A stretch of 36,319 nucleotides of DNA from a virus. Below the pieces are notes generated by a model, which saw only the letters and a list, made by a program, of their open reading frames with translations, was not told where the DNA came from and did no database searches. The stretch lies in IMG/VR virus record IMGVR_UViG_3300022920_000297, positions 1 to 36,319 of that record; one strand, given 5' to 3'. The position numbers were made by a program, and so were the translations under genes. Shown here piece after piece: positions 601 to 34,470 of this stretch (position 1 is its first letter; every line of letters begins with the position of its first letter).

Positions 601-1275
601 CTAATAAGTTTGGATAACGTGATCCGCAATACCATGTTTGATTGTTTCTTCTGTTGTTAACCAACAGTCACTTTCAGGTAATAGGTTTTTACGGATGTAA
701 CTTACATTTTTACCTGTACATTTTACATAGTGATCCATCATACGATCTGTTGACAATTCAAATTCTTTAACAATTGACATTAGTTCATGTTCTTTGCCTT
801 TTGAGCCCCATGAATATTGATGTGACATTACACTAGTATTTTGTGTAATATAACGATGTCCTTTTTCTCCTGCCATCATTAGTAGTACGCCGCAACTAGC
901 AATCATTCCCATACCATATGTGTATACTGGGATTTCACTTTGCTTGATTACATCAATTAGATGGAATGCACTGTTTACTGCGCCGCCTGGAGAATTAATG
1001 TACAAGTGAATAACTTCTGGTCTTGTTTCTGCTGGCATCATGTTATATTCCATAATCATTCTGACTAATGGCATACAGTTTTCTTGATTAAACTCTTTAT
1101 CCATGAATAGGACACCGTTATCATATAATGCTTCACCAGGTTTCTTGGGCGGCATTGGTGGCTGTGGCATTGCTACTTGTGGAGGAGTTGGAGTTGTCTT
1201 AGGTGTTGGAATAATTCCAGTGTCTAAGGCTTTTTCTTTAGTTTTTTTCTTTTTTGTGACTGGTTTTTTAGCCAT
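601..1275 (-). CDS. ClpP-like serine protease (S14 family) with Lys/Pro-rich N-terminal extension
   Basis: A 224-residue protein with a ClpP/crotonase-fold core from about residue 50. INSPGGAVNSA matches the oxyanion-hole glycine strand; GMIASCG carries the nucleophile Ser127; VMSHQ carries His152; and ESDCWLTTEE followed by HGIADHV gives the acid, Asp203, and the usual end of the fold. The triad is therefore complete. The first 50 residues are a Lys- then Pro-rich tail absent from cellular ClpP. Roles known for phage S14 proteases are prohead maturation and work with host Clp ATPases; the sequence does not decide between them. A T4-late-like box lies upstream (1336-1343) with a tail-fibre-type gene just before it, which favours late expression and a virion-maturation role. 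Confidence 0.85.
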   Translation of the reverse strand: MAKKPVTKKKKTKEKALDTGIIPTPKTTPTPPQVAMPQPPMPPKKPGEALYDNGVLFMDKEFNQENCMPLVRMIMEYNMMPAETRPEVIHLYINSPGGAVNSAFHLIDVIKQSEIPVYTYGMGMIASCGVLLMMAGEKGHRYITQNTSVMSHQYSWGSKGKEHELMSIVKEFELSTDRMMDHYVKCTGKNVSYIRKNLLPESDCWLTTEETIKHGIADHVIQTY

Positions 1276-10684: not shown

Positions 10685-11320
10685 CTAGTATCCTCGATGC
10701 CATATTGATATGCCAAACAGCACCAGGATGTAATCCGTCCCGTGCCTGAAAATCATTATCTTCAAACAAATACTGCTGAAGATTAATATTGTTAACCACA
10801 CAATACTGAGTTAAGAATAATGAATTTTTAATATAGTTATATTCGTCAACTTTATCATTTTGTAAACTTGTGTAGTCAATACTGGTTGGTCTGTATTTTT
10901 TCTTTCATACCGATATCCAGTTAGTTGCCCATCTTCTGTAACATGTTCACGACGACTTGGAATTGTCCACAATACTACAATATTTTTAGGTTTAAATGCT
11001 TCGCAATATGTGTATGCCATACGAACAATTGCATCGTTACTAATGCCACATATTCCTAAATTGGCATATTCGATAATATCAGCATATGGAGTTTGAACAC
11101 CATAGCCCATCGCATGACTACATCCAAAGCTGGCATCAACACCTAGCCCTGGACAAATTGTTCCACGATATCTGTATTCGTTAAAATAGTATAGTACTTC
11201 ATTACTATCCCCGCCAAGTGATTGCTCAGTTTCATCTAACCAATTACGCTGTCCAGGTTCTTCGTGCCCAAGGTGAAACTGGCTAAACCAGTCTCCCTTG
11301 ATGTCACGTAGTTCTTTCAT
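10671..11320 (-). CDS. SGNH hydrolase interrupted by a -1 frameshift at an A6 run
   Basis: From the ATG at 11320 (TAATG overlap with the upstream stop, GGTGGA ribosome site) the frame encodes block I ASFGCSHAMG (about residue 68) and the Gly/Asn block NLGICGISND. It ends at 10811 after an unrelated-looking tail. Shifting by -1 at the A6 run (10896-10901) opens another 75 codons ending at 10671, which contain RDGLHPGAVWHINMA, a textbook SGNH block V with the Asp-x-x-His pair. The joined protein would be 216 residues. The span is 650 nt and needs 651, so exactly one base is missing. In the zero frame the site reads A AAA AAT, a possible slippery heptamer. Mutation, sequencing error in the homopolymer or programmed frameshifting are all possible. 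Confidence 0.75.
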
Positions 11321-11880
11321 TAATTCCACCGATAAAAAATGTGAGTGCCAATCTGGCCTACACGAGTAATACTCCATCCACGTTTGCTACGACTCCAAGC
11401 TGGATTAACATAAGTTGTATGATAATGTGTTGCGCCTTCTGTGATACCACGATATGTATCCATAATAATCACATCCCAAGCAATACTGCGAGCTTTGTAG
11501 AATGCATCCATCTCATGTGGGGTATCTGCCTTACCGTCGCAATACCAACTGAACTGACACTTATTTCGTCTCATGTTGCCGTCGCTGTCCTGCATACCTT
11601 GCTTGACTACATCACAGATTGTATTTGGGTAACGTGTATCTTGCACACGATTAAGTACCACATCAGCAACCGCATATTGATCAGCATTACTACTACTACG
11701 TGCTTCGTAATAGATATTTAGCGCCATACATTCAATCTGTGGATATGTATTTGGGTCGTACTTAACTTGTTCATTTAGATCTTCGACTCCTTGTTTATAG
11801 AATGGAGTTCCAGTATCTGCATCTGCCTGAGCGCCAGATGCAATTACCATAGCTGTCATTACTGCTAGAAACTTTTTCAT
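11320..11880 (-). CDS. SleB/CwlJ-family cell wall hydrolase with signal peptide
   Basis: A 186-residue protein with a Sec signal peptide (MKKFLAVMTAMVIASGAQA, cleavage near residue 19). From residue 48 it follows the Hydrolase_2 (SleB/CwlJ) domain: ECMALNIYYEARS with catalytic Glu59, QYAVADVVLNRVQDTRYPNT, CQFSWYCDGK, and GATHYHTTYVNPAWS. Family members cleave peptidoglycan glycan strands. With its own signal peptide the protein reaches the periplasm without a holin, so it is a good endolysin candidate. It follows the glycine-zipper gene by 22 nt in the unit that starts at the 12437-12465 promoter. Confidence 0.88.
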   Translation of the reverse strand: MKKFLAVMTAMVIASGAQADADTGTPFYKQGVEDLNEQVKYDPNTYPQIECMALNIYYEARSSSNADQYAVADVVLNRVQDTRYPNTICDVVKQGMQDSDGNMRRNKCQFSWYCDGKADTPHEMDAFYKARSIAWDVIIMDTYRGITEGATHYHTTYVNPAWSRSKRGWSITRVGQIGTHIFYRWN

Positions 11881-21904: not shown

Positions 21905-22151
21905 CAAGTTTTTCCAACTTGTTTATTTTTGTTTCTAGTTGATCAAGTCTTGAAGGCTGTGGTTTGAACCAAGTCCAACCCCAACGTTCTACTAGAAAAT
22001 CCAATAAGGATGCCCATTTGTTATATGTCCATATCCCTATGTTTGTTTTTCTTATCCATGTAATGAATAGTGCGCCAAATATACTACCAACAATAGCTGT
22101 GTAAATCCACAGTCTATCTGTAGCCATACGCTCGATCATATCCCAGATCAT
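21879..22151 (-). CDS. Small membrane protein with C-terminal coiled coil
   Basis: A 90-residue protein. One transmembrane helix (about residues 15-33, LWIYTAIVGSIFGALFITWI), then a Trp-rich stretch (DFLVERWGWTWFKPQP) and a C-terminal amphipathic helix LDQLETKINKLEKLVDFHIK with heptad Leu/Ile/Val. The build is like that of small phage inner-membrane proteins. It overlaps the 453-residue gene by 4 nt and ends 35 nt before the DsbA-like gene, at the tail of the tagged-protein block. A role in lysis, membrane attachment or ejection cannot be decided. Confidence 0.65.
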   Translation of the reverse strand: MIWDMIERMATDRLWIYTAIVGSIFGALFITWIRKTNIGIWTYNKWASLLDFLVERWGWTWFKPQPSRLDQLETKINKLEKLVDFHIKTK

Positions 22152-23509
22152 TTTAGTTTAAAACCAATACGTCCTTTTTGTCCAGTTGCAAAGTAAACTT
22201 TATTTACTAGCTGTGGAGCACCGTCAAATACTGCTGGGAATTTTGTATAATAGCTTAATGCAAGATTGTCACCTTGTTTACTACCTTTGGTTAGTAGTTG
22301 TACATATTGGTTGTTGTTTAGTGCCGCCATCATTGCTGCTTTAAATTCTTCATCAGCATTAACTGCTGGAATTACTTGATTCATTATTGCTGCTAGTGTG
22401 TGGAAGAATACTCTATACTCAGGACGTTCTAAAGTTCCGGCTCCAACACCTTGCTGTGCTGTCATATTACGCAAACGTTCACTTTGCAAGTCTTGAATAT
22501 TTTGACTGCTTCTTTCTAAGTTAGATAACGCTTGTACGTCATTCTGATCAATTAAGTTGAACATACGTGCAACTTTAAGTGGACCATTAACCGCACTTTC
22601 TGTCGCCAACAAGTCGATAATTTTTGTACCATTTGGATACTTGCTTCTATGTTCGTCAGTTAATTGTTTTGCAACGCCACTTAAACTACTGGCCGCTCCG
22701 CCACTTTTACTAATTTTGCTACTAATTTGAATTTGCTGTCCATCTGGAGTTTCAATAATACTGTCAATAAGTTCCATAGCTGTATCTTGAGGGAACATAA
22801 CCTTGGAACCTTTTAATGATGACAAGTTAAAGTGTTTTAGCATTTCTGTAGTATTACCGGTTACACTTGCTGTTGCATCAATAAGTGCTAGTGGACCTAA
22901 ATATTCGCCACCATACTTTTGTAATACACCTGTGTATTCCTGTGCGCCGTCAATATATTGACTTTGTCCAGAACGTGCTTGCTTTACTGCTGAAGCCATT
23001 GTTGCAATTAATGCTTCGTGTTCACTACCACTTAATTGATTTTTGATACCTGACATAACATCATTTGCTAATTGCTCTGTTGAACGATAATTTTCATCTG
23101 TAACAAGATCACTTGGCTTGATTGGCATGCTTTCTTCTTTAGCACCTTTGCCATACTTGTAACCACGCAATGTTTTCCAAAGTCCTGTAACGCCAGCTGC
23201 TGGTATTTGTTTTAGATAGCGTACCCAATATTGTGCATTTCCATCTGCATCTGTTACTGATGCTAATGCTGCTGCTCTCATTCCTGCATTACTATTATTG
23301 TCGTTTACACGTAAACCTTTGTCAGGAATAGCTTGGCCAATTGCTTCCTCTAATTCTTCTAATGTTTCGTATCCTTCACCTTCTGATGGAAGTGTTACAA
23401 TTTCGCCAATGGTTAATACATCGCTTGGATCAGCAACATTGACATATGTTTCTCCAGGTGCTCTTGCTGTTACACCTCTTGATTCGTATAATATTTCATC
23501 AGCTCTCAT
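22148..23509 (-). CDS. Large unknown protein with capsid-targeting-like N-terminal tag
   Basis: A 453-residue protein starting MRADEILYESRGVTARAPGE. The first nine residues fit the M-K/R-x-x-E/D-I-L-x-E tag seen repeatedly in this block, with a possible prohead-protease site after ILYE. The body is helical and Ala/Gln/Ser-rich. A recognisable segment, LSGSEHEALIATMASAVKQA followed by GAQEYTGVLQKYGGEYLGPL, recurs in structural proteins of other T4-like marine phages, as I recall. No enzymatic motif is seen. Likely an internal head or ejection protein; inferred from tag, size and neighbours. Confidence 0.65.
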   Translation of the reverse strand: MRADEILYESRGVTARAPGETYVNVADPSDVLTIGEIVTLPSEGEGYETLEELEEAIGQAIPDKGLRVNDNNSNAGMRAAALASVTDADGNAQYWVRYLKQIPAAGVTGLWKTLRGYKYGKGAKEESMPIKPSDLVTDENYRSTEQLANDVMSGIKNQLSGSEHEALIATMASAVKQARSGQSQYIDGAQEYTGVLQKYGGEYLGPLALIDATASVTGNTTEMLKHFNLSSLKGSKVMFPQDTAMELIDSIIETPDGQQIQISSKISKSGGAASSLSGVAKQLTDEHRSKYPNGTKIIDLLATESAVNGPLKVARMFNLIDQNDVQALSNLERSSQNIQDLQSERLRNMTAQQGVGAGTLERPEYRVFFHTLAAIMNQVIPAVNADEEFKAAMMAALNNNQYVQLLTKGSKQGDNLALSYYTKFPAVFDGAPQLVNKVYFATGQKGRIGFKLK

Positions 23510-23511
23510 TT

Positions 23512-23769
23512 TTATTCTTCCTTAGTGCATTTACTACAAATCCAAACTTGGCCTCTAAGTCTGTCTCTGTTATTCCTATAGTCTACTAGTTTGACATCTA
23601 ATGCCTTATTTCTACATTTGTGGCACGTTTTTCCACTACATTCTGTACATACACAATGACTGCAAATCTTTGCCTCAAATGGCATTTGGTTTGTTCCAAA
23701 TTGAAATTCGCTAGCCGTTAATGTTGTTCCACAATGGCTTTCACGACCACAGTTATTGCAATATGCCAA
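23512..23769 (-). CDS. Multi-zinc-ribbon small protein
   Basis: An 85-residue protein with 13 cysteines. Pairs CNNC, CSHCVC, CSGKTCHKC and CSKC, plus the His of ESHC, suggest three or four zinc ribbons (CxxC...CxxC). No catalytic domain. Such proteins bind nucleic acid or partner proteins. It lies between two tagged large proteins with gaps of 2 and 0 nt, so it is part of the same operon, but it has no tag itself. Confidence 0.7.
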   Translation of the reverse strand: MAYCNNCGRESHCGTTLTASEFQFGTNQMPFEAKICSHCVCTECSGKTCHKCRNKALDVKLVDYRNNRDRLRGQVWICSKCTKEE

Positions 23770-24954
23770 TTAGGTATATCCTTTTGATACTGCCGCAGCA
23801 TCAGCTGAACCTAGACCAGATACATCTGCTCCGCCACTGCCACTACGATTAGTTAAATTCAAATCTCCATAATTTCTGTTACCGCCGATATCAGCACCCA
23901 TTGCCGCACTGCGAGCAGTTTTGCCACGATTACCACGCTTGAATGCATTTCTAACTTTTGACCCTAAACGTTTTGCACCTTGGATTGCTCCACGCTTTAA
24001 TGCTTGGCCTGCAGCGGTTCTCAAAGCTGCGCCTGCAGCTGCTCGTGCGCCAGTCCATGCTAATGCTGCTAATGGTAATACTTCATCCAATCTTTCTTCA
24101 GTTATCTCGCCTGATTCAAGTTGTTCATATATTTCCATTATCTCATTATGTTGGTTGATTAATTGATCTTTGTGTGCTGATAGCAATTGTTTTTCGTTGA
24201 TATCATATTGCATACTTAAAAGTATATTTTCCAACTGTTCTTTTTGCATGCCAACTTGGCTTTCGCTTACTGCTTCATTTGTAGTAAGCAATGCTAATGA
24301 TCTATCAATATGTTTGATGTTACTTTCTGGATTCTTGTTCAAGTTTTCCGTATCTGCATCCATAACTTCTTTTTGGTTGTTACGCATAATTTTTAGTTCT
24401 TGTGTTAGATCTTTTACATTTTTGATACCGTACGGCTCAACATTGCTCCAGGCACGGTCAGCCCATTTTGGATCTTGTAGCATTTTGGCAGTACGTGCCA
24501 TAGCTAATACTTGATCACTAATAGCTCGTTGTTCTGGACCAAATGTTGCATCAATTGATGCAAGTGCTTTGTCCATTGCTGCTTTTTGTTTTGGATCTTG
24601 TGGCTTTGGTGTTACTGGCTTAAACTCACGTGGCTTATACTCTGGTGCTGGACCAGCTTTAACTTCAGTCTTTTTACCTTTGGCAGCAATAGTAGCTGCT
24701 GCTTTATTGGCAGTTTCTTCTTTGTAAAACGCTTTCCATTTTTTGCCGTTAATATATACTGTATATACTTGCTTGCTTTCATCTTCGTTCATACTGTCGT
24801 CATTATCAAAAATGTCGTCAACCACTTTGGCATGAATGCCCATCTTTTTAGCGTTAAAATGAGCTTCTGCTTTGCCCATTCCTTCAGCTTTCATAGCTTT
24901 AACACGTCTAATAGCACCTGCTAAACTGCCTTCATCTAAGTGGTTAAGTCTCAT
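23770..24954 (-). CDS. Large unknown virion-type protein with repeat-like domain and protease sites
   Basis: A 394-residue protein. The start MRLNHLDEGSLAGAIRR fits the block's tag form with a possible cut after HLDE. Residues 65-95 (YTVYINGKKWKAFYKEETAN then AAATIAAKGKK) form a small alpha/beta unit. A second candidate cut, RLDE, is followed by a hydrophobic and Ala-rich segment (VLPLAALAWTGARAAAGAAL), which could be a membrane-active peptide released by proteolysis. The Ala/Gly/Arg-rich tail (SKVRNAFKRGNRGKTARSAA) should bind DNA. It overlaps the following gene by 1 nt. An ejection or internal head protein is a reasonable inference. Confidence 0.6.
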   Translation of the reverse strand: MRLNHLDEGSLAGAIRRVKAMKAEGMGKAEAHFNAKKMGIHAKVVDDIFDNDDSMNEDESKQVYTVYINGKKWKAFYKEETANKAAATIAAKGKKTEVKAGPAPEYKPREFKPVTPKPQDPKQKAAMDKALASIDATFGPEQRAISDQVLAMARTAKMLQDPKWADRAWSNVEPYGIKNVKDLTQELKIMRNNQKEVMDADTENLNKNPESNIKHIDRSLALLTTNEAVSESQVGMQKEQLENILLSMQYDINEKQLLSAHKDQLINQHNEIMEIYEQLESGEITEERLDEVLPLAALAWTGARAAAGAALRTAAGQALKRGAIQGAKRLGSKVRNAFKRGNRGKTARSAAMGADIGGNRNYGDLNLTNRSGSGGADVSGLGSADAAAVSKGYT

Positions 24955-26285
24955 TATCTCTTCACCTTATTCTTAGCAGCTTTTTTTGCTTTGCTGAACA
25001 TATCGCCTGCAATAGTTTTTAAATCACTGTCTTGTTTATCATCAAAGCTCATAGCTTCGTTTGCTGTTTCTGCTTTTGATGCATGTACTGCTTTACGTTG
25101 TGCATGTGACTTGTACTTGCCTTCGTACATCGCCTCTTCTGCACACTCATCACATGTATCAATATCGCCGTCTGTTTCTTTAGAGATCCATTCACAGTCT
25201 GCACAACCTGCTGTGCCTTCATCTAAATCTGCACGTTGTAAAAAACTTTGAATAACATCTGCGTCTAATGATGTTAATAGTTTGTGCATTACTTTTGGAT
25301 AACCATGTTGTTTAATCATGGCATATACTGGTTGAGTGTAGTATCCACCTGCTTCATTAATTGATTGATCTGCTGTGCCTTCATCTAGTTCTTTCCATTC
25401 ATCATATGATAGATAAATGTCTGTGTCTGGATCGTAGTAACTACCTTCTTTTGGATCGTAATAAACTACTTTTCCTGATTTTGTAGGAAATGGTCCTTCT
25501 AGTCCATCACGTTCAATATATTTTGGATCCATAGGTGGTAAAACTGTATACCCTTCGTCTACCTGGATATCTACTAATGTTGCTGCCATATCGCCAATAG
25601 CCATAGTCACTTTGCCGTTACGCTTATAAAGTACACGCTTAACACTTGTTGGACTATCTGCTCTTGCTAGTGTTGCTTTTCCAACACCATTCTTTAAAAC
25701 ATTGTTTGCTTTAACTACGTACTCGATATAATCAGTACCTTTTTCTAATGCACTGTCATGCTTAATTTTAACTTTATCGCCACGCTTTAAGTTATCAAAG
25801 ATTTTAGCTAGTTCAGGTGATGCTGGATCCATTGCTTCAGGAACCATTTCTGGCTCAACTGTTGCTGGTAATTGTGGTTCCATTTCTGGCTCTTGTGTTT
25901 TGTTATATTCAATATAACGTCCAACTGCATTAATATCTTTACTTGCTTGTGCAATTTTACTTTGAACCCACGGCTCTAAGTTATCTCTGTCATCAATTGC
26001 ACCATGTAATTTAATTGAATCTTGTGCTAGGAAATATAATTGGCTACGTGCCATAAATCCATCTTCGTCATCTCCGTCTAGTACACCTTCGGTAAGTGTA
26101 GTAGTAGTTAATGCGTTAATGGCTTTTGAAATATTTTCTCTTACAATAGCTAATACTGCTGTGTCACCACGTGATTCTAAAACTGCGGCGTCTAATTTGC
26201 CATTCTCAGCAAATGCTTTTTCTAATTTAGCAAGCTCTGTTGCGGCTCTGCTAAATGTATTATCAATTTTTTGTGTGTTACTCAT
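24954..26285 (-). CDS. Large acidic unknown protein with zinc-binding Cys motifs
   Basis: A 443-residue acidic protein. The N-terminal 90 residues are helical (RAATELAKLEKAFAENGKLD); GDKVKIKHDSALEKGTDYIE starts a small beta domain; SYYDPDTDIYLSYDEWKELD follows; and near the end GCADCEW...TCDECAEEA contains two CxxC pairs that should bind one zinc. Several (L/I)-x-E motifs (LTE-G, LDE-G twice, INE-A) look like T4-type prohead-protease cut sites. The C-terminus is basic (KAKKAAKNKVKR). Unlike its neighbours the N-terminus is not the tag. Likely a structural or scaffold-type protein; not certain. Confidence 0.6.
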   Translation of the reverse strand: MSNTQKIDNTFSRAATELAKLEKAFAENGKLDAAVLESRGDTAVLAIVRENISKAINALTTTTLTEGVLDGDDEDGFMARSQLYFLAQDSIKLHGAIDDRDNLEPWVQSKIAQASKDINAVGRYIEYNKTQEPEMEPQLPATVEPEMVPEAMDPASPELAKIFDNLKRGDKVKIKHDSALEKGTDYIEYVVKANNVLKNGVGKATLARADSPTSVKRVLYKRNGKVTMAIGDMAATLVDIQVDEGYTVLPPMDPKYIERDGLEGPFPTKSGKVVYYDPKEGSYYDPDTDIYLSYDEWKELDEGTADQSINEAGGYYTQPVYAMIKQHGYPKVMHKLLTSLDADVIQSFLQRADLDEGTAGCADCEWISKETDGDIDTCDECAEEAMYEGKYKSHAQRKAVHASKAETANEAMSFDDKQDSDLKTIAGDMFSKAKKAAKNKVKR

Positions 26286-26479
26286 TTGTTTTTTACCTTT
26301 ACTGGGTTAGCATAGCCAACACTTTTTATTTTTCCTGCGCCTAAATATCCCTTGGGATCTACGGCTCTTCGTACCATTTTCTTTTTTCCAAACAAAGGAA
26401 ACACAACTGTCGCCATATCAGCACTCGCTGTGGCGCCTGCGTCAGCATCTTCGTTTATTATGATATCGATTATCTTCAT
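26282..26479 (-). CDS. Small protein with capsid-targeting-like tag
   Basis: A 65-residue protein. MKIIDIIINEDADAGATASA shows the tag with a possible cut after INE, leaving an acidic-then-basic mature peptide (FPLFGKKKMVRRAVDPKGYL, ending VKVKNK). The basic peptide could bind DNA inside the head. No ribosome site is visible before ATG, and a CATAAATA box lies only 5 nt upstream, so a leaderless or read-through transcript is implied. It overlaps the downstream gene by 4 nt. Confidence 0.6.
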   Translation of the reverse strand: MKIIDIIINEDADAGATASADMATVVFPLFGKKKMVRRAVDPKGYLGAGKIKSVGYANPVKVKNK

Positions 26480-26484
26480 ATATG

Positions 26485-26492
26485 TATTTATG
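26485..26492 (-). promoter_or_regulatory. Late-promoter-like box CATAAATA, close to the 26479 start
   Basis: The minus strand reads CATAAATAC 5 nt before the ATG. It matches T4-late boxes except in the first position. The distance is short, so transcripts would start at about the ATG. It could also serve downstream genes. Weak support. Confidence 0.35.
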
Positions 26493-26500
26493 TTATTCGT

Positions 26501-26725
26501 TCATTTGTCTAAGTTTCGAATAATGTTCTTACTGTTACGTCTGTTGGCTTTATTTGTACTATTTTTAATTTGTTGCTTTTTGGCGACTACAATACGTTTT
26601 CGTTTGTTATCCATTGGTCTATTTGGGTCAGCTTTTGCATATACCATTGCATCAGCTTTTGCAACATCATTCATAGGACCGTCAGTTTCTTGCAATTCTT
26701 CAGGGTTAAATTTTTTTCTAGCCAT
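26501..26725 (-). CDS. Small basic protein
   Basis: A 74-residue protein, MARKKFNPEELQETDGPMND then ADPNRPMDNKRKRIVVAKKQ and a Lys/Arg/Asn-rich end (NRRNSKNIIRNLDK). The N-terminal LQE-T may be a protease site, but the tag is absent. The strongly basic C-terminal half suggests DNA binding or packaging with DNA. It lies between the tagged 65-residue gene and a GNAT gene, with 5-nt and 21-nt gaps. Confidence 0.6.
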   Translation of the reverse strand: MARKKFNPEELQETDGPMNDVAKADAMVYAKADPNRPMDNKRKRIVVAKKQQIKNSTNKANRRNSKNIIRNLDK

Positions 26726-26730
26726 TGGTT

Positions 26731-27111
26731 TTATCCATTATAATAAGTTATACGCATTGCTGCTTTTTGTGCTACTCTTAAACTAGCACGATTTTCTGGA
26801 TTAATCAAGCACCAAAGTTGTTTATCTGCAAATTTTTCTTTAATTAATTTTACTGCGTGTGTTGCTATTCCTTTACCACGCCATTGTCTACCTACTAAAT
26901 ATGCTGTCTCTAAATTGCTTCTTATCTCAATTGCACCTAGTAAAACTTCACTGTGATATATACCCCATGTATTATATTCACATATAAATGACATAGCACT
27001 TTCGCGATCGAATGGCCAAGTTAATCCTGCTGCAATAGCTGTATCTTTATCAATTATTGCTGTTAATTTATAGAAGTCTTTAGATTGAAATCTACGTAGT
27101 TCGATCTTCAT
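26731..27111 (-). CDS. GNAT-family acetyltransferase
   Basis: A 126-residue protein with the RimI/RimJ-type GNAT fold. MKIELRRFQSKDFYKLTAII is strand 1/helix 1; GIYHSEVLLGAIEIR gives strands 2-4; VGRQWRGKGIATHAVKLI contains the acetyl-CoA pyrophosphate loop (RGKGIA = R/Q-x-x-G-x-A); and LWCLINPENRASLRVAQKAA holds the conserved Asn and the helix after it. It acetylates an amine on a protein or small molecule; the target is unknown. Its position among tagged proteins raises the possibility of packaging, but its own N-terminus is the fold, not a tag. Confidence 0.8.
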   Translation of the reverse strand: MKIELRRFQSKDFYKLTAIIDKDTAIAAGLTWPFDRESAMSFICEYNTWGIYHSEVLLGAIEIRSNLETAYLVGRQWRGKGIATHAVKLIKEKFADKQLWCLINPENRASLRVAQKAAMRITYYNG

Positions 27112-27120
27112 TATACTTAC

Positions 27121-27324
27121 CTATTGGTGATTGTCGAGCCTTTTTGCTAGTTCTTTAATTTTTTTACTTGCATATGTTTCACAGCAACGTGGAACAAACA
27201 TGTGTACCAGTAAGGCTAGCTCTGCTTTTTTAAGTTCTACTAAGAACCCAAATGCAAACTTAAAGTGTTCCCATCTTGACATTTTTACGTTTGCTAAGTG
27301 TGCTTTGCATTGTTTACTAAACAT
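27121..27324 (-). CDS. Small DUF6356-like hypothetical protein
   Basis: A 67-residue protein: MFSKQCKAHLANVKMSRWEH then FKFAFGFLVELKKAELALLV and HMFVPRCCETYASKKIKELA. The pattern C-x-x-HL...M-x-x-W-x-H-F-x-F-A...H-x-x-x-P is one I associate with a short bacterial and phage family of unknown function (DUF6356). It has a half-hydrophobic central helix, perhaps membrane-associated. The start codon follows the stop of the tagged 64-residue gene directly. Confidence 0.6.
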   Translation of the reverse strand: MFSKQCKAHLANVKMSRWEHFKFAFGFLVELKKAELALLVHMFVPRCCETYASKKIKELAKRLDNHQ

Positions 27325-27519
27325 TTATTCGTCTTTCATTAATTTTACTATTCTTGGTTTGAACAGTTTTTGATCGCCTTTGGTTGTTTTTAACACAGGC
27401 TGATTATTCTCATCTTTTCCGAAGCCAGTTACAGTAGCTTTACGATTTTTAAATTTGCCAACGAGTATCTCGTCTCCAATTTCAATACTAGGCAACTTTA
27501 GTATGTCTTTAATTCGCAT
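27325..27519 (-). CDS. Small tagged beta-barrel-like protein
   Basis: A 64-residue protein. MRIKDILKLPSIEIGDEILV begins with the tag; the rest (GKFKNRKATVTGFGKDENNQ then PVLKTTKGDQKLFKPRIVKL) looks like a small SH3/KOW-type beta barrel. A candidate cut is after SIE. It is separated by 2 nt from the next tagged gene. Relatives that I recall in T4-like phages have no known function. Probably a virion or internal head protein. Confidence 0.65.
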   Translation of the reverse strand: MRIKDILKLPSIEIGDEILVGKFKNRKATVTGFGKDENNQPVLKTTKGDQKLFKPRIVKLMKDE

Positions 27520-27521
27520 CG

Positions 27522-27644
27522 TTAATTCTTTACATTCTTTGCTTTTTTAATACAGTTGGGTACACGTTTTCCAAACATGGTTTTCATACCATCTTTTTTG
27601 TAGCCCTTCCAACACTTTTCTGTTAAGATATCTTGTATTTTCAT
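27522..27644 (-). CDS. Tagged small Cys/Lys-rich protein (40 residues)
   Basis: Found by translating the gap: MKIQDILTEKCWKGYKKDGM then KTMFGKRVPNCIKKAKNVKN. The tag ends in ILTE, a perfect (L/I)-x-E candidate cut, leaving a 31-residue basic peptide with two Cys. The KCWKGYKKxGMKxxFGKRVPNC pattern is one I recall from other marine T4-like phages. It overlaps its upstream neighbour by 3 nt (ATGA). Likely a packaged DNA-binding peptide; function unproven. Confidence 0.75.
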   Translation of the reverse strand: MKIQDILTEKCWKGYKKDGMKTMFGKRVPNCIKKAKNVKN

Positions 27645-27808
27645 TTCTTAGAGTTTTCCCAATTGGATGCACCAACTTTACTACACTTAGTGTCGTCTGT
27701 TACAAAGTGCTTTTGACCATTGGTAGTCTTTTTGCGCATACCATAGGCTTTCATAGTACTATACATAGGTACTAATCCGTGTTCATTTAAAATGTCATTT
27801 ATTTTCAT
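27641..27808 (-). CDS. Tagged small protein (55 residues)
   Basis: Found by translating the gap: MKINDILNEHGLVPMYSTMK then AYGMRKKTTNGQKHFVTDDT and KCSKVGASNWENSKK. The tag ends in ILNE, a perfect candidate cut. Strong ribosome site AAGGAGTC 7 nt before ATG, and a GATAAATA late-like box 20 nt upstream. The mature part is basic with one Cys and Trp. No family is known to me. It heads a cluster of three tagged small genes. Confidence 0.75.
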   Translation of the reverse strand: MKINDILNEHGLVPMYSTMKAYGMRKKTTNGQKHFVTDDTKCSKVGASNWENSKK

Positions 27809-27827
27809 GATGATGACTCCTTAAAAG

Positions 27828-27835
27828 TATTTATC
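27828..27835 (-). promoter_or_regulatory. Late-promoter-like box GATAAATA before the tagged gene at 27808
   Basis: GATAAATAC on the minus strand, overlapping the stop codon of the preceding gene and about 6 nt before the ribosome site AAGGAGTC. The distance to the ribosome site is close to that at 1824-1831 and 32478-32485. One mismatch to TATAAATA, in the first position. Confidence 0.5.
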
Positions 27836-28631
27836 GTTTGCCAGCTTTCATATTGGCGCACCAGTGATACATTTTTGCTTTCTCACCGCTTGCCTTTTTT
27901 GCTTTGGATCTTAGTTCTGTTACGCTACCGTTACAACTTGCACCTGACTTTTTTACTCTGCCTGGTCTGCTTTTGCCTTTTACTTTACCGTCAGCAAAGT
28001 TTTCTTCTACATCAGTCTGTGGATAACGGATCATAGTTTCTCTAAAGCGAAAGTCTTTGTTACGACCTTTGTTTGGTACGAAACCAAAACGCTTATAGAA
28101 CTTAATTAGTCTGTTTTTGTTCCCACCAAACGCACTGTCTGGGGTTAGTGCGATAATAGCACCTTCGCTATCCATTCTGTCAACAATATCTTGCATTGCT
28201 TTTGTACCTTGACCAGCATTACGCTCATCGCCTGATACTTTAATCTTAGATAGCGTATAACCTTTTTTAGCATCTCCGTGTAATGATACTTCAACTTCTT
28301 CGTTAAACTGTTTACCGTATACTTCTTCGTTAAACTGTTTACCGTATATGATATCTTGTTCACGTTCTTGTTTCCAAAGTATTTCTACTTTTTCATATGG
28401 AACATATTCTACTGATACAGTATCTTTGCCAGCCTGTATAGCATCTACCAATCTATGATACCCATTTACAAGATATACATGACCTGATGGGAGTTTTGTA
28501 ACTGCCAACGGAGCATCTGTTCTACTTCCGCCACCTACTGATTGTGCGATTGCCATACCAGCATCACTGATAGTCAAATCGCTAATTTTCATTTCTATTG
28601 CTTTGTTTTCGGTAATCTCTCTAATGAACAT
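27831..28631 (-). CDS. ParB-like / GNAT fusion protein with conserved basic C-terminal domain
   Basis: 266 residues from the ATG at 28631 (AGTGG ribosome site, 4 nt after the upstream stop; a GTG at 28691 would add 20 residues). Three parts: a ParB-like fold (KISDLTISDAG to GHVYLVNGYHRLVDA, G-Y-H-R at 57-60), a linker with the duplicated YGKQFNEEV, a GNAT domain (SGDERNAGQGTKAMQDIVDR is the acetyl-CoA loop; NRLIKFYKRFGFVPN the end), then a basic Cys domain (KSRPGRVKKSGASCNGSVTE ... MYHWCANMK). The chosen start reads MFIREITEN, a tag-like sequence with a possible cut after ITE. ParB-GNAT fusions are rare. The ParB part may supply a nucleotide-binding site; the substrate is unknown. Confidence 0.75.
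   Translation of the reverse strand: MFIREITENKAIEMKISDLTISDAGMAIAQSVGGGSRTDAPLAVTKLPSGHVYLVNGYHRLVDAIQAGKDTVSVEYVPYEKVEILWKQEREQDIIYGKQFNEEVYGKQFNEEVEVSLHGDAKKGYTLSKIKVSGDERNAGQGTKAMQDIVDRMDSEGAIIALTPDSAFGGNKNRLIKFYKRFGFVPNKGRNKDFRFRETMIRYPQTDVEENFADGKVKGKSRPGRVKKSGASCNGSVTELRSKAKKASGEKAKMYHWCANMKAGKR
28294..28347 (-). repeat. Tandem 27-bp exact duplication in the ParB-GNAT linker
   Basis: The 27-nt unit at 28294-28320 is repeated exactly at 28321-28347, in frame, doubling the nine residues YGKQFNEEV between the ParB-like and GNAT domains. Perfect identity points to a recent duplication by slippage, or to an assembly artefact. Confidence 0.9.
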
Positions 28632-28635
28632 GGGA

Positions 28636-29016
28636 TTACCACTTACGGCATGACCAGTAACGTGCTTTATGCTTCGGTCCTGGACTATCACAGTTGTGTC
28701 TTGCTCTAAAGCTCTTGCGGGCTTTTGGATTATTTTTGCGGATCTTCATTGCTTTGCCTTTAACACTTGTACCACCGTGACCAAAGTTAACTTTAACTAC
28801 ATTGCCTTTTGGATTCTTTACATATACTTTAAACTTTTTAACATCGCCTTGCATTGGCTTGTTTAGCTTAACAGTACGTCCTTGATATTCTGCTTCAAAT
28901 AAACCATTTTCGCAGTATGCAAGATAACCAAAATGCTCATGAAAGTCTTCATGCTCTTCTAATGTGATATCTTCAGTTAAGGTAATTTCTTCGCTTACAA
29001 TATCTTCAACTAGCAT
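28636..29016 (-). CDS. Tagged protein with conserved Cys/Trp C-terminal domain (DUF5872-like)
   Basis: A 126-residue protein. The start MLVEDIVSEEITLTEDITLE has three candidate (I/L/V)-x-E cuts in a row, an exaggerated form of the tag. The C-terminal two thirds (GDVKKFKVYVKNPKGNVVKV then NFGHGGTSVKGKAMKIRKNN, RKSFRARHNCDSPGPKHKAR and YWSCRKW) match a domain widespread in T4-like marine phages, which I would compare with DUF5872: 'FGdp..........R..FraRH.Cd.pgpk..arYWsC..W'. Likely a virion or packaged protein. It overlaps the upstream gene by 11 nt. Confidence 0.75.
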   Translation of the reverse strand: MLVEDIVSEEITLTEDITLEEHEDFHEHFGYLAYCENGLFEAEYQGRTVKLNKPMQGDVKKFKVYVKNPKGNVVKVNFGHGGTSVKGKAMKIRKNNPKARKSFRARHNCDSPGPKHKARYWSCRKW

Positions 29017-29794
29017 TTAGTTTTTCCTTTTCATAATGTGCGGCTAATGTACGTGCGTCTGGTTTTCCACCAAATACACGACTTACTTCATATGCGTATC
29101 CTGATACACTTTGTTTATTACCGTCTTGTTTAATCATATGTTCTATGGCCTTCATTGCTGCATCTAACATTTTGCTATTTGCATCTTCCATTACATCGTC
29201 TTGATTAAAGTTGTGTGCATCAATATACTGCATTACAGGATATAATGTAGTTACAATTTGATTACCAAAGCGACTATTCTTGCCTGAACCTGGCTTAGTT
29301 TCTAACTTCTTTGCTTCGCTACGTAGTGTCATCATGTCATCGATTGCAGACTTGAACTTTGGATCTATATTTTGGAACCTATTAGTTCTTGCTTCGATCC
29401 AAGAATATACATCCCATGTATCGCTTGCATATTGGTTTGCTAAGTTGCCCTGATCATCGTCTTGTCCACGTTCAATCTTTTTGCCTTTGCCACGCAATAC
29501 CCCTAGTGCATCACTTGCATCTTTGCTAGTTTTAATATATGCTTCCATTACTTCATCTTCGTCATCATAGTACATGTCTGGATTGATTTTTGCATCTAGT
29601 GCAACGCCTGCTGCTTTTGCAAGCTTTCTAATTTTGTTAAGACCTTTACCAGTCTTGTATGCTGTTTTTACCATCATCTTTAATGCAGCAAACGATGTTT
29701 GCGCTACTACTGCCATGACAATAAGCTCAGCCATGCTAGGCAAAGCTCCCATGTCTTCATTTAATTTACTTTCGTATAAATCTGTTATTCTCAT
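29006..29794 (-). CDS. Tagged unknown protein (262 residues)
   Basis: The ATG at 29794 is chosen over an in-frame start at 29914 because it has GGGAAAG upstream, lies 1 nt after the preceding stop, and restores the tag MRITDLYESKLNEDMGALP. Two candidate cuts (LYE-S, LNE-D) follow each other. Then comes one hydrophobic segment (about 17-36, MAELIVMAVVAQTSFAALKM) and a helical, charged body. After cleavage the hydrophobic segment would lie near the mature N-terminus, suitable for membrane interaction on ejection; this is inference. No enzymatic motif. Confidence 0.65.
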   Translation of the reverse strand: MRITDLYESKLNEDMGALPSMAELIVMAVVAQTSFAALKMMVKTAYKTGKGLNKIRKLAKAAGVALDAKINPDMYYDDEDEVMEAYIKTSKDASDALGVLRGKGKKIERGQDDDQGNLANQYASDTWDVYSWIEARTNRFQNIDPKFKSAIDDMMTLRSEAKKLETKPGSGKNSRFGNQIVTTLYPVMQYIDAHNFNQDDVMEDANSKMLDAAMKAIEHMIKQDGNKQSVSGYAYEVSRVFGGKPDARTLAAHYEKEKLNAS

Positions 29795-29795
29795 T

Positions 29796-29966
29796 TTAAA
29801 ACTTTCCCATATCAAAGCTAGTTTCACTTCTTGATGGTGTAAAATAGCTACGCCAGTATTTATTACGATCGTTGGTACTAGTACGGTTCTTTTCATGTTC
29901 TTTATATTTTTCAATATAATGTTTAAGTTGTGTTGGTGTTAACTCCCTTTGTATTACTTTATTCAT
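29796..29966 (-). CDS. Small hypothetical protein (56 residues)
   Basis: Found in the gap upstream of the tagged 262-residue gene: MNKVIQRELTPTQLKHYIEK, then YKEHEKNRTSTNDRNKYWRS and YFTPSRSETSFDMGKF. Basic and helical at first, aromatic towards the end. The ribosome site AAAGGATTGGAT is upstream of ATG, with a 10-nt gap to the oxygenase stop. No tag and no known family. An AATAAATAC sequence inside it might start a late transcript for the next gene. Confidence 0.65.
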   Translation of the reverse strand: MNKVIQRELTPTQLKHYIEKYKEHEKNRTSTNDRNKYWRSYFTPSRSETSFDMGKF

Positions 29967-29976
29967 ATCCAATCCT

Positions 29977-30600
29977 TTATATTTTAAATAACTCAGTATT
30001 ACAACAATACCTTATTAATAGACTATGTCTATCTGTTGTACATTTTTCTACACTGTGCCATGTACTATTATTACATTTAAACATCCATGCTGTATTGGGT
30101 TTGTTTTCTATGTAATTCTGAATTGTCCCGCCGTTGTTGCGGTCATCGTCCCATAAACTTACGCCATTATCAGGATCATTTTCTGTAACATACAATTGAA
30201 AACTTACCATGTCCTTAAAGGTGGGTTTATTATCAGTATGAGTGTTTAATGTATATCCTGGTTGACTTTTGTGTATATGGAATTGGGTAAACTCAATATC
30301 ATCAATACCAAAAATATTCTTTAATGTATCTATTACTTCATCGCTTTCAAATACATTATACCATTCCTTCCAGAATTCTGGATGGTCTTTAGATTTTCTA
30401 GTATCATATTGCAATTGATGAGCTAAAAGAAATCTATCGTCTTTAGCCCCAGTGTGTGTATTTTTTATAACATCAGCTAATTGATCAAATATTTCCTGTG
30501 GTAGAAAATTTTCAATTACTATATGCTCAAACGGATTAGTATGCATTGTTGCCTGTTGGAATGCTGATACCACATGACTTATCAATTGCTGTTGTTGCAT
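29977..30600 (-). CDS. 2OG-Fe(II) oxygenase
   Basis: A 207-residue protein of the prolyl-4-hydroxylase-like 2OG-Fe(II) family. HIVIENFLPQEIFDQLADVI is the usual N-terminal segment; TLNTHTDNKPTF gives His121 and Asp123; NGVSLWDDD is the 'GG.l.ly' strand; and TWHSVEKCTTDRHSLLIRY supplies the distal His182 and the 2OG-binding Arg. Substrate unknown. Phages often carry several such enzymes; this one lies inside the tagged block and 4 nt from a tagged gene but has no tag. Confidence 0.82.
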   Translation of the reverse strand: MQQQQLISHVVSAFQQATMHTNPFEHIVIENFLPQEIFDQLADVIKNTHTGAKDDRFLLAHQLQYDTRKSKDHPEFWKEWYNVFESDEVIDTLKNIFGIDDIEFTQFHIHKSQPGYTLNTHTDNKPTFKDMVSFQLYVTENDPDNGVSLWDDDRNNGGTIQNYIENKPNTAWMFKCNNSTWHSVEKCTTDRHSLLIRYCCNTELFKI

Positions 30601-30604
30601 ACTG

Positions 30605-30802
30605 TTACCCTCTGTCTGATAATCCCATATTGAATAGAGTATTTGGGTTGCTGTTCTTACGTGCCTTAGGCATTAGTTCTTTTATTTTGCCATTACCAAA
30701 TTTCGCTGCTTGTCGTTCAGTTTCGCCAGGTTTGACGTCTACTGTGGTGTTAACACCAGGAACAATAACTCCATCTTCATTTAAAATATCACGTATCTTC
30801 AT
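30605..30802 (-). CDS. Small tagged protein (65 residues)
   Basis: MKIRDILNEDGVIVPGVNTT is the clearest form of the tag, with a candidate cut after ILNE. The remainder (VDVKPGETERQAAKFGNGKI then KELMPKARKNSNPNTLFNMG) is basic and resembles a short conserved motif (VKPGET.RQ..KFGN) that I recall from other T4-like phages. One nt separates it from the next upstream gene. Likely a packaged or internal head peptide. Confidence 0.75.
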   Translation of the reverse strand: MKIRDILNEDGVIVPGVNTTVDVKPGETERQAAKFGNGKIKELMPKARKNSNPNTLFNMGLSDRG

Positions 30803-30803
30803 T

Positions 30804-31010
30804 TTAATCCCAAATTACTTCTTTACATATTACTTTTACTTCTTTTATGCCTTCTGGCAAATCATATGCGTTATTAACATAATCTATTAGAAATTCTTTT
30901 CTCTGATTACAAATTTCCAATGTTGGCTGTTGCGTTGGGCTCCAACCATCTAGTGTTACTTCTTCGTTAGCTGTAGTTACAAAAAGAACTACTAATAGCC
31001 AAAATTTCAT
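30804..31010 (-). CDS. Small secreted or membrane-anchored protein
   Basis: A 68-residue protein with a hydrophobic N-terminus (MKFWLLVVLFVTTANEEVTL) that fits a short signal peptide or anchor, then a soluble part with two cysteines (IC...VIC) that could pair in the periplasm. Its start overlaps the nucleotidyltransferase stop (TAATG). No known family; a spanin-like or superinfection-related role is possible but unsupported. Confidence 0.6.
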   Translation of the reverse strand: MKFWLLVVLFVTTANEEVTLDGWSPTQQPTLEICNQRKEFLIDYVNNAYDLPEGIKEVKVICKEVIWD

Positions 31011-32230
31011 TATACATACTCCAGTACCTCCTCAGGAATACCAATATCCTGAATGACGTGGTTGCGAGCAAAGTTTGTGAAGATTTTCTTTTGTGCATCA
31101 CTGCTAAAGTTTTTCTTAACTGCGTCAAACAATGTCTCGAAACTATATAATGCTTCTGCATCACCTAGGCTTAGGACTTCAGCAATCTCATCTGCTGTTT
31201 TCCATGGTCCTTGTTTTATTACGTTCTTATTCTTCTTTGTGTATGCCGTTCCAGCCTTATTAAGTACTGGTGTACGTTCTACACGTATCAAACCATCTGT
31301 TGGGCTCCACATGAAACGTTCAACTTTCATACTTCTTCCATCATCTAGCTTGTCCTCACTTGCAACAGGATCTTTGTTTGCTGCAATAGCTGAAAGCATA
31401 ATATTACGGAACACACCTTTGTACTTACTGTGCTTACCGTCTGTACTCATGCCTTTTTCGTGCGGAGCATGGTAGAACGTTTTCATCCAACCTGGATCGC
31501 CTGGCATAAAGTCAATTTGTACTTTGCCTGTTCTTACCATACCTTCTTTATTTTTGTCTCGATCATATCCAACAATATCAACTGATGTCATAAACACACT
31601 TGATTTTTTAACATCCAAAATGCTAGGTGCTTTTTCTAGTTTACTCATAAACTCTGGTAAATCTTCTGGCTGTAAGTTAATAGCAATATCAATGTCTCCA
31701 CTGTATTCTTTTTTGCCTACGCTACCAAGAGTAAACCCTTTAAGATCTATGCCTAATTCTTTCTCTAGTTTATCAAGTGTTGGTTCAATTTCGCTGTGAT
31801 GGATAACTCCAACACCTGGCATACTGCCGCCTTCCATAATTACGCTTTCAACAGCAAACTCTTTGTTTGATGTACTGAAGTTCTTTTTACGCATTACAGT
31901 TTTAGCAATTAGCTCTAGCATACCAGTTTGTGAATTCCAATCTAATGCAAAAGGAATGTTGATATCTGATGACATATCTTTCATTACTGCCTGTGCATCT
32001 GGACCCATTTGTGCAATTGGTTTACCAAATTTGATAAACTCTTTCTTAAACAACTGTCCTAATTCACTAAGTGTAATTTGTTTTATATTACGTTCGTCAT
32101 TTACACGATCTAAAAAGTGACGGGTAAATTCTACATCAATACCTACTTGTGCAAATACCTTATCAAGTGCCTTTTCAAGTGCATCTATTTGTATTTGTGA
32201 TACTGGCTGGTCTACTTCTGTAATTCTCAT
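31010..32230 (-). CDS. Nucleotidyltransferase-fold protein (Pol-beta superfamily)
   Basis: A 406-residue protein. FTLGSVGKKEYSGDIDIAIN is the Pol-beta-type nucleotidyltransferase motif GS-x(n)-DxD (Gly169, Ser170, Asp179, Asp181), and GKVQIDFMPGDP provides the third carboxylate, Asp240, so catalysis is possible. Residues 1-115 form a separate domain (VEFTRHFLDRVNDERNIKQI then LSELGQLFKKEFIKFG). The start MRITEVDQPV is like the tag in its first five residues but lacks the I-L-x-E site. Such enzymes add nucleotides to RNA, proteins or small molecules; a packaged host-modifying enzyme is one possibility. It overlaps the tagged 76-residue gene by 4 nt. Confidence 0.75.
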   Translation of the reverse strand: MRITEVDQPVSQIQIDALEKALDKVFAQVGIDVEFTRHFLDRVNDERNIKQITLSELGQLFKKEFIKFGKPIAQMGPDAQAVMKDMSSDINIPFALDWNSQTGMLELIAKTVMRKKNFSTSNKEFAVESVIMEGGSMPGVGVIHHSEIEPTLDKLEKELGIDLKGFTLGSVGKKEYSGDIDIAINLQPEDLPEFMSKLEKAPSILDVKKSSVFMTSVDIVGYDRDKNKEGMVRTGKVQIDFMPGDPGWMKTFYHAPHEKGMSTDGKHSKYKGVFRNIMLSAIAANKDPVASEDKLDDGRSMKVERFMWSPTDGLIRVERTPVLNKAGTAYTKKNKNVIKQGPWKTADEIAEVLSLGDAEALYSFETLFDAVKKNFSSDAQKKIFTNFARNHVIQDIGIPEEVLEYV

Positions 32231-32457
32231 TTTTTATCCTTTGGCATCGATTTTTCACCAGTTAAGTGTGGTCTTGAAAACCATAATTTAAACCATTCAT
32301 CTGTGCCAGGTCTAACTTTGTGTTTTGTTTGATACTGTGATTTTTCTGTGCCGATATTGCTAATATTAGGTGTACCTGATTCGCTCTGAATATCATTGCC
32401 ATTTTTGTCAATAATACCAGCCAATCGTTTCAGTTCGTAGATTTCATCTATTTTCAT
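32227..32457 (-). CDS. Small tagged protein (76 residues)
   Basis: MKIDEIYELKRLAGIIDKNG starts with the tag in the form I-Y-E. The C-terminal PGTDEWFKLWFSRPHLTGEK followed by SMPKDKK is a striking motif (DEWFKLWFSxPxLTGExPM) that I recall from several marine T4-like phage proteins. It has AGAGGA 8-9 nt before ATG and a CATAAATA late-like box upstream. Function unknown; virion-type by tag and promoter. Confidence 0.72.
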   Translation of the reverse strand: MKIDEIYELKRLAGIIDKNGNDIQSESGTPNISNIGTEKSQYQTKHKVRPGTDEWFKLWFSRPHLTGEKSMPKDKK

Positions 32458-33435: not shown

Positions 33436-34470
33436 TTATCGTGTCACTTCCTCGAATGGTATACTTGCTAAGTTCTTAGCCTTTGCTTCGACCATAATGT
33501 CGAAGTCCTTGCGAAATGTACCAGCCCATTCATTAACTGCTGTATTCCACATAAAGTCACTATGCGCTCGTAACTTACCTTTTTTGTATCCTGTCTCATA
33601 TAGCTCTACAAAATCTGGTCGTACATCTGTGCCATGCTCCAGTAATATATCTTCACGTGACTGACTATAATGCATTGCAGGACGTACACCACGCCAACTA
33701 TCAATAACACGTTTGATACGATCATCATTTGCATTAATATATTCGCCTTCGCGGCACAAGTGGTGGTGTATGTCGATAACAAGAGCAACATCATTTTCAA
33801 GCTCTAAGCTATCAGCCAAACCCCACTTGTTTTCGTCGTTTTCAATAGTAATAGTGTTTCTTGCTTCTGTAGACAGTCTTGGAAGGATGGCTTTGATACC
33901 GGCTGGACCTTGTCTACCGCTGATGTGGACGTTACACTTGAAGTCTTGCCAAGTTTTACCATAGCCCATCCACCTGATGATATCCGCATGATACTCGAAC
34001 TCCTCTAAACTACGTTCAACAATGTCAGGATTGTCACTTGCTAGTACTGTAAACTGTCCTGGATGCATACTAAGACGTACATCTAAGCTAGCAGCTACTT
34101 CGCCAGTCTTACTCCATTCACGCTCTGCTACGTCACGAACATCGTTACGAGCATAAAAATGCTTCCAGTTTGGATGTGTATATGCAGGCATCATATTGCT
34201 ACCTAAACGTACCATACGTTGTTGCTCAGGTAAATTACCTACGTATTCAATAAGTCGCCTTGCATTACGTGCATTAGTTACAAGGCAATCCCATAGCTTT
34301 TCTTCTGCTACATCTGGAGTTTGTCTATCTAGCCATGTAATGGTAGTACTACGCTCACTGTATTGGCCTTGTATTTCTTTAAGGATTTTTGGCTTTTGCG
34401 TCTGGTCTGGGTGCATGTATTTGCATGCAAATCCTACACGTTGTAATTCATGATTGAACATAGTATACAT
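33436..34470 (-). CDS. uvsE: UV damage endonuclease (UvdE/UvsE)
   Basis: A 344-residue TIM-barrel enzyme of the UvdE family. Signatures: RVGFACKYMHP at the start; VRLGSNMMPAYTHP; VRLSMHPGQFTVLASDNPDI, carrying a metal-binding His; TITIENDENKWGLADSL with metal Glu and Asp; VIDIHHHLCREGE; and MHYSQSRED with a further ligand. The enzyme nicks DNA 5' to UV photoproducts and other lesions, starting alternative excision repair. For a surface-water phage, repair of sunlight damage makes sense. The ATG at 34470 is used because AGGAG lies 5 nt upstream; the longer frame begins inside the promoter. Confidence 0.92.
   Translation of the reverse strand: MYTMFNHELQRVGFACKYMHPDQTQKPKILKEIQGQYSERSTTITWLDRQTPDVAEEKLWDCLVTNARNARRLIEYVGNLPEQQRMVRLGSNMMPAYTHPNWKHFYARNDVRDVAEREWSKTGEVAASLDVRLSMHPGQFTVLASDNPDIVERSLEEFEYHADIIRWMGYGKTWQDFKCNVHISGRQGPAGIKAILPRLSTEARNTITIENDENKWGLADSLELENDVALVIDIHHHLCREGEYINANDDRIKRVIDSWRGVRPAMHYSQSREDILLEHGTDVRPDFVELYETGYKKGKLRAHSDFMWNTAVNEWAGTFRKDFDIMVEAKAKNLASIPFEEVTR

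Follow-up and report, generated by a model that had tools for sequence, protein, structure and literature searches.

A short N-terminal peptide resembling T4 capsid-targeting sequences on a cluster of otherwise unrelated virus proteins

The 36,319-base IMG/VR virus fragment IMGVR_UViG_3300022920_000297, called the window here at its full length, has nearly all of its genes on the minus strand. Between positions 22148 and 32457, neighbouring genes encode proteins that begin with variants of one short peptide (the tag) and have bodies unrelated to one another. Taken as a whole, the data make it highly probable that this shared N-terminus is a T4-type capsid-targeting propeptide in a lineage dialect, and that the block is a cargo cassette. 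Packaging of the block proteins themselves is suggested by sequence and well supported through relatives. The cassette would combine: small basic proteins; a mini-protein with a capsid-arm-like stretch; and enzymes (ParB/GNAT-like, Pol-beta-like nucleotidyltransferase).

The proposed sequence of events has three steps. Late in infection, the proteins would attach to the prohead core by means of the tag. Next, an S77 head protease of the gp21 type would cleave behind (I/L)-x-E, so that the 8-10-residue tag would be lost and the mature proteins would stay in the head. At the next infection, the cargo would enter with the DNA, where it may serve effector functions. Fused cargo carrying [ILV]-x-E between its domains may be cut into separate pieces.

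The closest named phages to the family B DNA polymerase of the window are T4-related jumbos: Sinorhizobium Phosso (51%), Atu_ph07 (46%) and RaK2 (43%). Relatives of this polymerase are carried by hundreds of environmental contigs. In the annotated phage collection, the 15-36 kb part of the window has no DNA-level match, and the 22148 protein and the 26282 mini-protein have no tblastn match (genes are named by their lower coordinate; Table 1). Pfam returns nothing for most tagged proteins.

The shared N-terminus

Variants of M[KR]Ix[DE][IL][LYI]xE open 12 of the 19 genes in the block, all on the minus strand. Every N-terminus listed by an earlier sequence-only reading, which had proposed a capsid-targeting-like tag, lies on that strand where the reading placed it; one looser member, MRITEVDQ at 32230, was absent from its list. 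The tag ends in (I/L)-x-E in nine of the 12 and in V-x-E in MLVEDIVSE, while the expected E is missing from MRIKDIL and MRITEVDQ.

The 19 block genes were compared with the 48 genes elsewhere in the record. Block proteins average a pairwise BLOSUM62 score of +0.35 over residues 2-9, versus -6.7 for genes outside; residues 10-17 of the block are at background (-6.9), placing the end of sharing at residue 9. The N-terminal score of the block was never reached in 20,000 random draws of 19 genes or in 2,000 residue-order shuffles. Because the pattern was first spotted by eye, a second test used a heptad regular expression derived from T4 IPII, IPIII and Alt only. In its strict form this expression matches 4/19 block genes versus 0/48 outside (Fisher 0.005), and in its relaxed form 7/19 versus 0/48 (Fisher 6e-5). 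An (I/L)xE within residues 6-11 is found in 9/19 block genes versus 4/48 outside (p=8e-4). The sequence-only reading had held that the pattern should not be equally frequent in unrelated genes of the same genome, and on the 36-kb record it is not.

Beyond the window, the motif has 41 unique matches in 2.0 Mb from 91 related contigs, and most permuted motifs have 0-6. A milder control motif, with K replacing E, has 16 matches in the same 2.0 Mb; the motif core therefore partly occurs without the E. Chance resemblance among short amphipathic N-termini has in its favour that the motif is short and degenerate and that tag-like starts open about 1% of genes elsewhere, but it is contradicted by the random gene sets, the block-versus-outside counts and the permuted motifs, and is scarcely credible.

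At the nucleotide level, the tags contain 80 same-codon pairs versus 75 expected. Synonymous codons vary as usage predicts, and the tag is therefore conserved at the protein level. The bodies of the tagged proteins show no significant mutual blastp similarity. Since sharing ends at residue 9, codons vary and bodies are unrelated by blastp, the conserved unit is an 8-10-residue peptide. These observations bear on two further explanations. The tags could be relics of a tandem gene family with diverged bodies and have no targeting role: the genes adjoin, the tags are alike, and some small modules recur in relatives. This is highly unlikely, as the bodies have no detectable similarity and include different folds, sharing is at background by residue 10, other lineages put different tag dialects on the same bodies, and the [ILV]-x-E junction is kept in fused bodies. 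A common start could alternatively act in translation or stability (codon context, degron) and not in localisation, as would fit its place exactly at the start codon. Here, the retention of residues while codons vary, the internal tag of a fused protein (contig G015) and the occurrence of the same tags on virion proteins confirmed by mass spectrometry (MS) make such a role extremely unlikely.

Head loci, virion proteins and dialects in relatives

The initial 10 residues of T4 IPIII (MKTYQEFI[AT]E) are enough for packaging. Within this signal, positions 4 and 7 are important for targeting and positions 8 and 10 for processing; the gp21 cut falls behind L/I-x-E (PMC9026906). The window tags and the T4 capsid-targeting sequences (CTS) of IPII, IPIII and Alt both follow hydrophobic-x-acid-hydrophobic-hydrophobic-x-E. 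The window form I-x-D-I-L-x-E, as against Y-Q-E-F-I-A-E and I-T-E-L-F-D-E in T4, has one residue fewer before the first hydrophobic, and MKIIDIIINE and MRADEILYE are one residue off the T4 CTS spacing. This agreement in spacing and in (I/L)-x-E ends bears out the view that clustered neighbours with unrelated bodies share a capsid-targeting-like N-terminus with a T4-type protease site. When run on T4, the relaxed pattern finds nine annotated starts: ipII, ipIII, alt, gp24, gp2, gp61.1, dda, modA.2 and rnlA. Five of these nine are established head or packaged proteins.

The same kind of start appears in the head loci of relatives. In environmental jumbo phages, the position occupied in T4 by gene 67, immediately behind the portal gene, usually holds a gene for a protein of 70-80 aa that begins MKAKDLLVE/FYDPADD or a variant (MKFKDVLNE, MKKSDIINE, MKANELLFE); other bodies there begin MKLSEITE, MKIKDIIDE or MRLDELLN. 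Such starts are present in most jumbo head loci in which the slot gene was readable; a minority of loci have a different gene or are unreadable there. The PA5oct slot protein EST35_0150 (MKINDIITE/GYY) is annotated as found by electrospray ionisation tandem mass spectrometry (ESI-MS/MS) and falls in PHROG 13986, as does the protein at this slot in contig G024. This contig, which has tagged genes and the domain D1, also encodes an S77 prohead protease (PF03420 at 2e-24). The RaK2 annotation, in the part covered, has no MS flags.

Further MS-positive PA5oct proteins have tag-like starts: EST35_0205, 0230, 0238 (VKIKDILVE), 0349, 0380 and 0381. Under the relaxed pattern, 6/9 annotated tag-like starts of PA5oct are MS-positive versus 93 of ~446 coding sequences (CDS) overall (about 21%), the CDS total being estimated from tables rather than computed. 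PA5oct EST35_0231, the homologue of the window nucleotidyltransferase, is MS-confirmed in virions. It lies directly behind EST35_0230 (MRLDEIQ), just as the window nucleotidyltransferase gene lies behind the 32227 gene (MKIDEIYE).

Tag sequences fall into lineage dialects, and no single one serves all phages. A given body appears with more than one of them: D1 stands behind MRITEVD, MSKWSWLRE, MSNWSWLNE or MITFKDFILKE, and the 28636 body in contig C48C1 starts with the T4-type MKKFKQYIDE. C48C1 also has MLSFKQFVSE, MMLDFKNFITE and MITFKKYLEE, and contig L276 has MKTFKQFLKE, MITFKDFILKE, MILTFKQFLVE and MILTFKQYLNE within one 12-kb stretch. In Atu_ph07, ten consecutive genes at 39.5-50.6 kb (L243 9485-20593) begin M[KR]Wx[DQ]L[NTI]E (for example, MKWNDLNE, MRWEQLNE, MRWEQLTE), and the GNAT homologue that follows (MRLFQLLE) brings the run to eleven consecutive tagged genes. 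By CDS counting, this run is gp53-63, within a virion cluster, CDS 31-76, from which 29 proteins were detected by MS (PMC6102473). The suggestion that the tag could be used to find such proteins in other phages holds for the related contigs, C48C1, L276 and Atu_ph07.

Two features of the Atu_ph07 run stand apart: a Zeta_toxin/AAA_33 kinase domain in its first protein, and a YRGM motif in many bodies, ADP-ribosyltransferase-like by eye only. In Melnitz, HTVC008M, immuto, Atu_ph07 and PA5oct (L095, L159, L161, L243, L094), clusters of tag-like starts are also found close to the DNA primase gene, and possibly represent a conserved cargo locus.

Several points weigh against a capsid-targeting cassette. 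The E is missing in 2/12 tags and 7/19 block genes are untagged. Two tags depend on the choice of start in program-made open reading frames (ORFs; 29794 and 28631). Whole jumbo relatives have few strict tags each, ~1% of genes. The window phage is known from a 36-kb fragment without head genes, and evidence from virions comes from relatives only. There, the tag-like starts of PA5oct are MS-positive only in part (6/9) under patterns tuned by eye, and the Atu_ph07 MS count is cluster-wide and not assignable here to gp53-63.

Putative fused cargo, enzymes and a capsid-arm-like mini-protein

Predicted cut sites recur where cargo bodies are fused. The nucleotidyltransferase is joined to differing upstream parts, and its GG[AS]MPG is always preceded by (I/L)-x-E: IME in the window, LME, IVE or LNE elsewhere; solo forms start MLTE/GG or MAVLSE/GG. 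The CWKGY module stands behind LTE or VNE, and in G015/L262 behind the complete internal tag MKISDIVNE; one CWKGY context (L026) has no cut site. In L273, the 22148 body is part of a long protein and stands behind an ITE near residue 1130. The retained [ILV]-x-E points to separation of fused cargo at these junctions, on a small number of cases that are in part homologous to one another. Three proteins that otherwise differ share a further stretch, E[SA]RG[DV]TA, right behind the predicted cut site: window 24954-26285, window 22148-23509 and L095 1621-3573.

Some tagged proteins look enzymatic, as the sequence-only reading had supposed. The AlphaFold2 (AF2) model of the 31010 protein is of moderate quality. 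Foldseek pairs its C-terminal part with structures of DNA polymerase beta/lambda (E 7e-5, probability 1.00, with a TM score kept low by the partial match); by predicted fold, this domain resembles Pol-beta nucleotidyltransferases. The GNAT part of the 27831 protein matches phrog_10691 (9e-25) as well as DarB-like and PLxRFG proteins. The domains catalogued for packaged polyvalent proteins include GNAT, ParB and nucleotidyltransferase (PMC5512222). The 27831 protein is short of the polyvalent or DarB type, in which several effector domains share one long polypeptide: its DarB-like match is in the GNAT part only. The AF2 model of the 22148 protein is weak (pLDDT 63) and has no significant match in the PDB, just faint hints of endonuclease folds.

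The mini-protein family to which the 26282 protein belongs (F1) carries a DASAGATSAGNIASVN-type sequence after its tag, and the jumbo major capsid protein carries SATAGATQAGNIAVLN after its own L/I-x-E. A hidden Markov model was built from 14 F1 bodies; among 10,096 six-frame ORFs, it finds F1 members first and then mostly the major capsid proteins of ten contigs, at individually weak E-values (0.008 to 3.5). On its own, the window copy is a marginal match to the capsid arm (2/300 shuffles). Comparison of F1 with the capsid protein of the same phage is limited to more distant jumbos; a major capsid gene was not detectable in the nearest contigs. In G015/G020, the similarity by eye between F1 and the phage's own capsid arm is poor.

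T4 has a counterpart in gp61.1, which begins with the CTS-type MKTFKEFIKE. Against the mature N-arm of gp23 it scores 69, and the best of 2,000 shuffles reaches 46; within T4, no protein matches it better than gp23. Annotation software has already caught the capsid resemblance, since it labels some relatives of gp61.1 as major-capsid-domain proteins. No described function for gp61.1 was found in the literature searched; the capsid-arm likeness of the mini-protein points to a role for it. In PA5oct, the MS-confirmed virion protein EST35_0203 (127321-128817) has a MFNINDILRLAG start and a capsid-arm-like junction, VEE/TASAGASSAGGIASVAKPF, at about residue 42.

Some tagged proteins may belong to the head core or line the capsid, given that one tag family occupies the post-portal slot of a prohead-core gene and that F1 is similar to the N-arm of the capsid protein. 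Extended to most carriers, this becomes a rival account: the tag would target the prohead, and the proteins would be structural parts that stay in the head or aid assembly, not ejected effectors. Along with the slot and F1 observations, it draws on the many tagged proteins that are tiny and basic and on T4 IPIII mutants, which affect head assembly (PMC9026906). Set against it are the several bodies that look enzymatic and match polyvalent or DarB-like packaged classes, and the T4 proteins IP1-3, which are ejected anti-restriction proteins with the leader alone in common (PMC12373910). On balance, a structural role for most carriers seems unlikely.

A wider proposal covers T4-related phages in general and is offered tentatively, as one we lean slightly against: lineage-specific head-entry dialects would make cargo interchangeable; fused cargo would be head-protease polyproteins cut at [ILV]-x-E; and the tagged mini-protein (F1, gp61.1) would be released with an N-terminus imitating the mature major capsid arm, perhaps lining or locking the inner capsid wall.

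Genes of the block and known packaging systems

Coordinates are collected in Table 1. The MRITDLYE start is an internal ATG (29794) of a longer program-made ORF, 29006-29914. The MFIREITE start (28631) is likewise internal to a longer ORF and has no clear Shine-Dalgarno sequence; this gene is probably translationally coupled. Among relatives, the 30605 body is fused to other domains (for example, in L020), the 27325 body has MKINEIVEP in front, and 22148 homologues start MRAFELLE, MRAFELLSE or MRAEQIIFE.

Table 1. Positions of tagged genes, further window genes and the T4 mini-protein
Feature	Position	Strand	Description
76-aa protein	32227..32457	-	tag MKIDEIYE 32434-32457, predicted cut after I-Y-E
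406-aa protein	31010..32230	-	loose tag MRITEVDQ, domain D1 (residues ~10-130), then Pol-beta-like nucleotidyltransferase
Internal site of 31010 protein	31832-31840	-	I-M-E/GGSMPG
65-aa protein	30605..30802	-	tag MKIRDILNE 30776-30802
262-aa protein	29006..29794	-	tag MRITDLYE 29771-29794
126-aa protein	28636..29016	-	tag MLVEDIVSE 28990-29016; basic C-terminus with Cys
266-aa ParB-like (motif by eye) + GNAT protein	27831..28631	-	tag MFIREITE 28608-28631
55-aa protein	27641..27808	-	tag MKINDILNE 27782-27808; ATAAATA upstream
40-aa protein	27522..27644	-	tag MKIQDILTE 27618-27644 + CWKGY module
64-aa protein	27325..27519	-	tag MRIKDIL, no E
65-aa protein, family F1	26282..26479	-	tag MKIIDIIINE 26450-26479, then stretch like the major capsid protein N-arm
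443-aa untagged protein	24954..26285	-	internal VLE/SRGDTAV junction resembling that of 22148
394-aa protein	23770..24954	-	tag MRLNHLDE 24931-24954
453-aa protein	22148..23509	-	tag MRADEILYE 23483-23509
T4 gp61.1	NC_000866 18966-19130 (L336)		adjoins primase gene 61; CTS-type start + GDxGxNxxNIxxGxTSGAVxxxGP
UvdE UV endonuclease gene	33436-34470		window gene
2OG-Fe(II) oxygenase gene	29977-30600		window gene
Cell-wall hydrolase gene	11320-11880		window gene
Clp-protease-like protein gene	601-1275		window gene

In window 27522-29016, small basic Cys-containing modules recur that are found at the ends of many marine phage proteins in varying order of combination: CWKGYKKxGMK..PNC, GRVKKSGASCNGS..YHWCANM and FRARHNC..RYWSCRKW. 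The T4-late-promoter-like (T)ATAAATA lies upstream of some tagged genes; its sites in the window (26491, 27834, 32484) are few and were given no weight. In many F1 relatives (for example, L062, L071, L074), it lies just a few bases ahead of the start codon, a placement that would yield almost leaderless late mRNAs.

If the capsid-targeting reading is true, the packed cargo of uncultured T4-related phages becomes readable from sequence, by taking the dialect from the post-portal gene and listing the genes that share it. Many hypothetical proteins would become candidates for head proteins or early effectors, anti-defence proteins included, and short tags would be available for loading proteins into other phage heads. 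No report of the tag in marine or jumbo phages was found in a literature search whose coverage left out most subscription papers.

The capsid-targeting principle itself is familiar from T4 and P1; what is added here is the dialect system, the marine-type cluster, the junction sites and the capsid-arm mini-protein. Like the signals of T4 IPI-III and Alt (MKTYQEFIAE, MELITELFDE), the window tag is a short N-terminal peptide on unrelated proteins with a predicted cut after L/I-x-E, and the putative cargo of the window, like that of T4, includes enzymes. The window differs in having I/L where T4 has aromatics, about twelve adjacent carriers, and a marine-type jumbo-related lineage. T4 gp24, a gp21 substrate, has an N-terminus (MAKINELLRE) nearly equal to window MKINDILNE; unlike internal cargo, it is a capsid vertex protein. 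T4 gp61.1 resembles F1 in being small, with a capsid-targeting-type start and then a capsid-N-arm-like stretch, but it uses the T4 dialect and matches T4 gp23 rather than the jumbo capsid protein. The PA5oct/RaK2-type post-portal gene (phrog_13986) puts the same tag on a virion protein in the gene 67 slot; it is a single conserved head gene, whereas the window holds a probable cargo cluster. Atu_ph07 shares with the window a run of tagged genes, cleavable-looking L-x-E ends, and adjoining GNAT and nucleotidyltransferase homologues, in another dialect and on bodies in part mutually related. P1 DarB has an N-terminal packaging signal (PMC9024508), and DarB and the polyvalent proteins carry payloads of the same GNAT, ParB and nucleotidyltransferase classes; in contrast to the window proteins, they are giant and multidomain, and use another signal.

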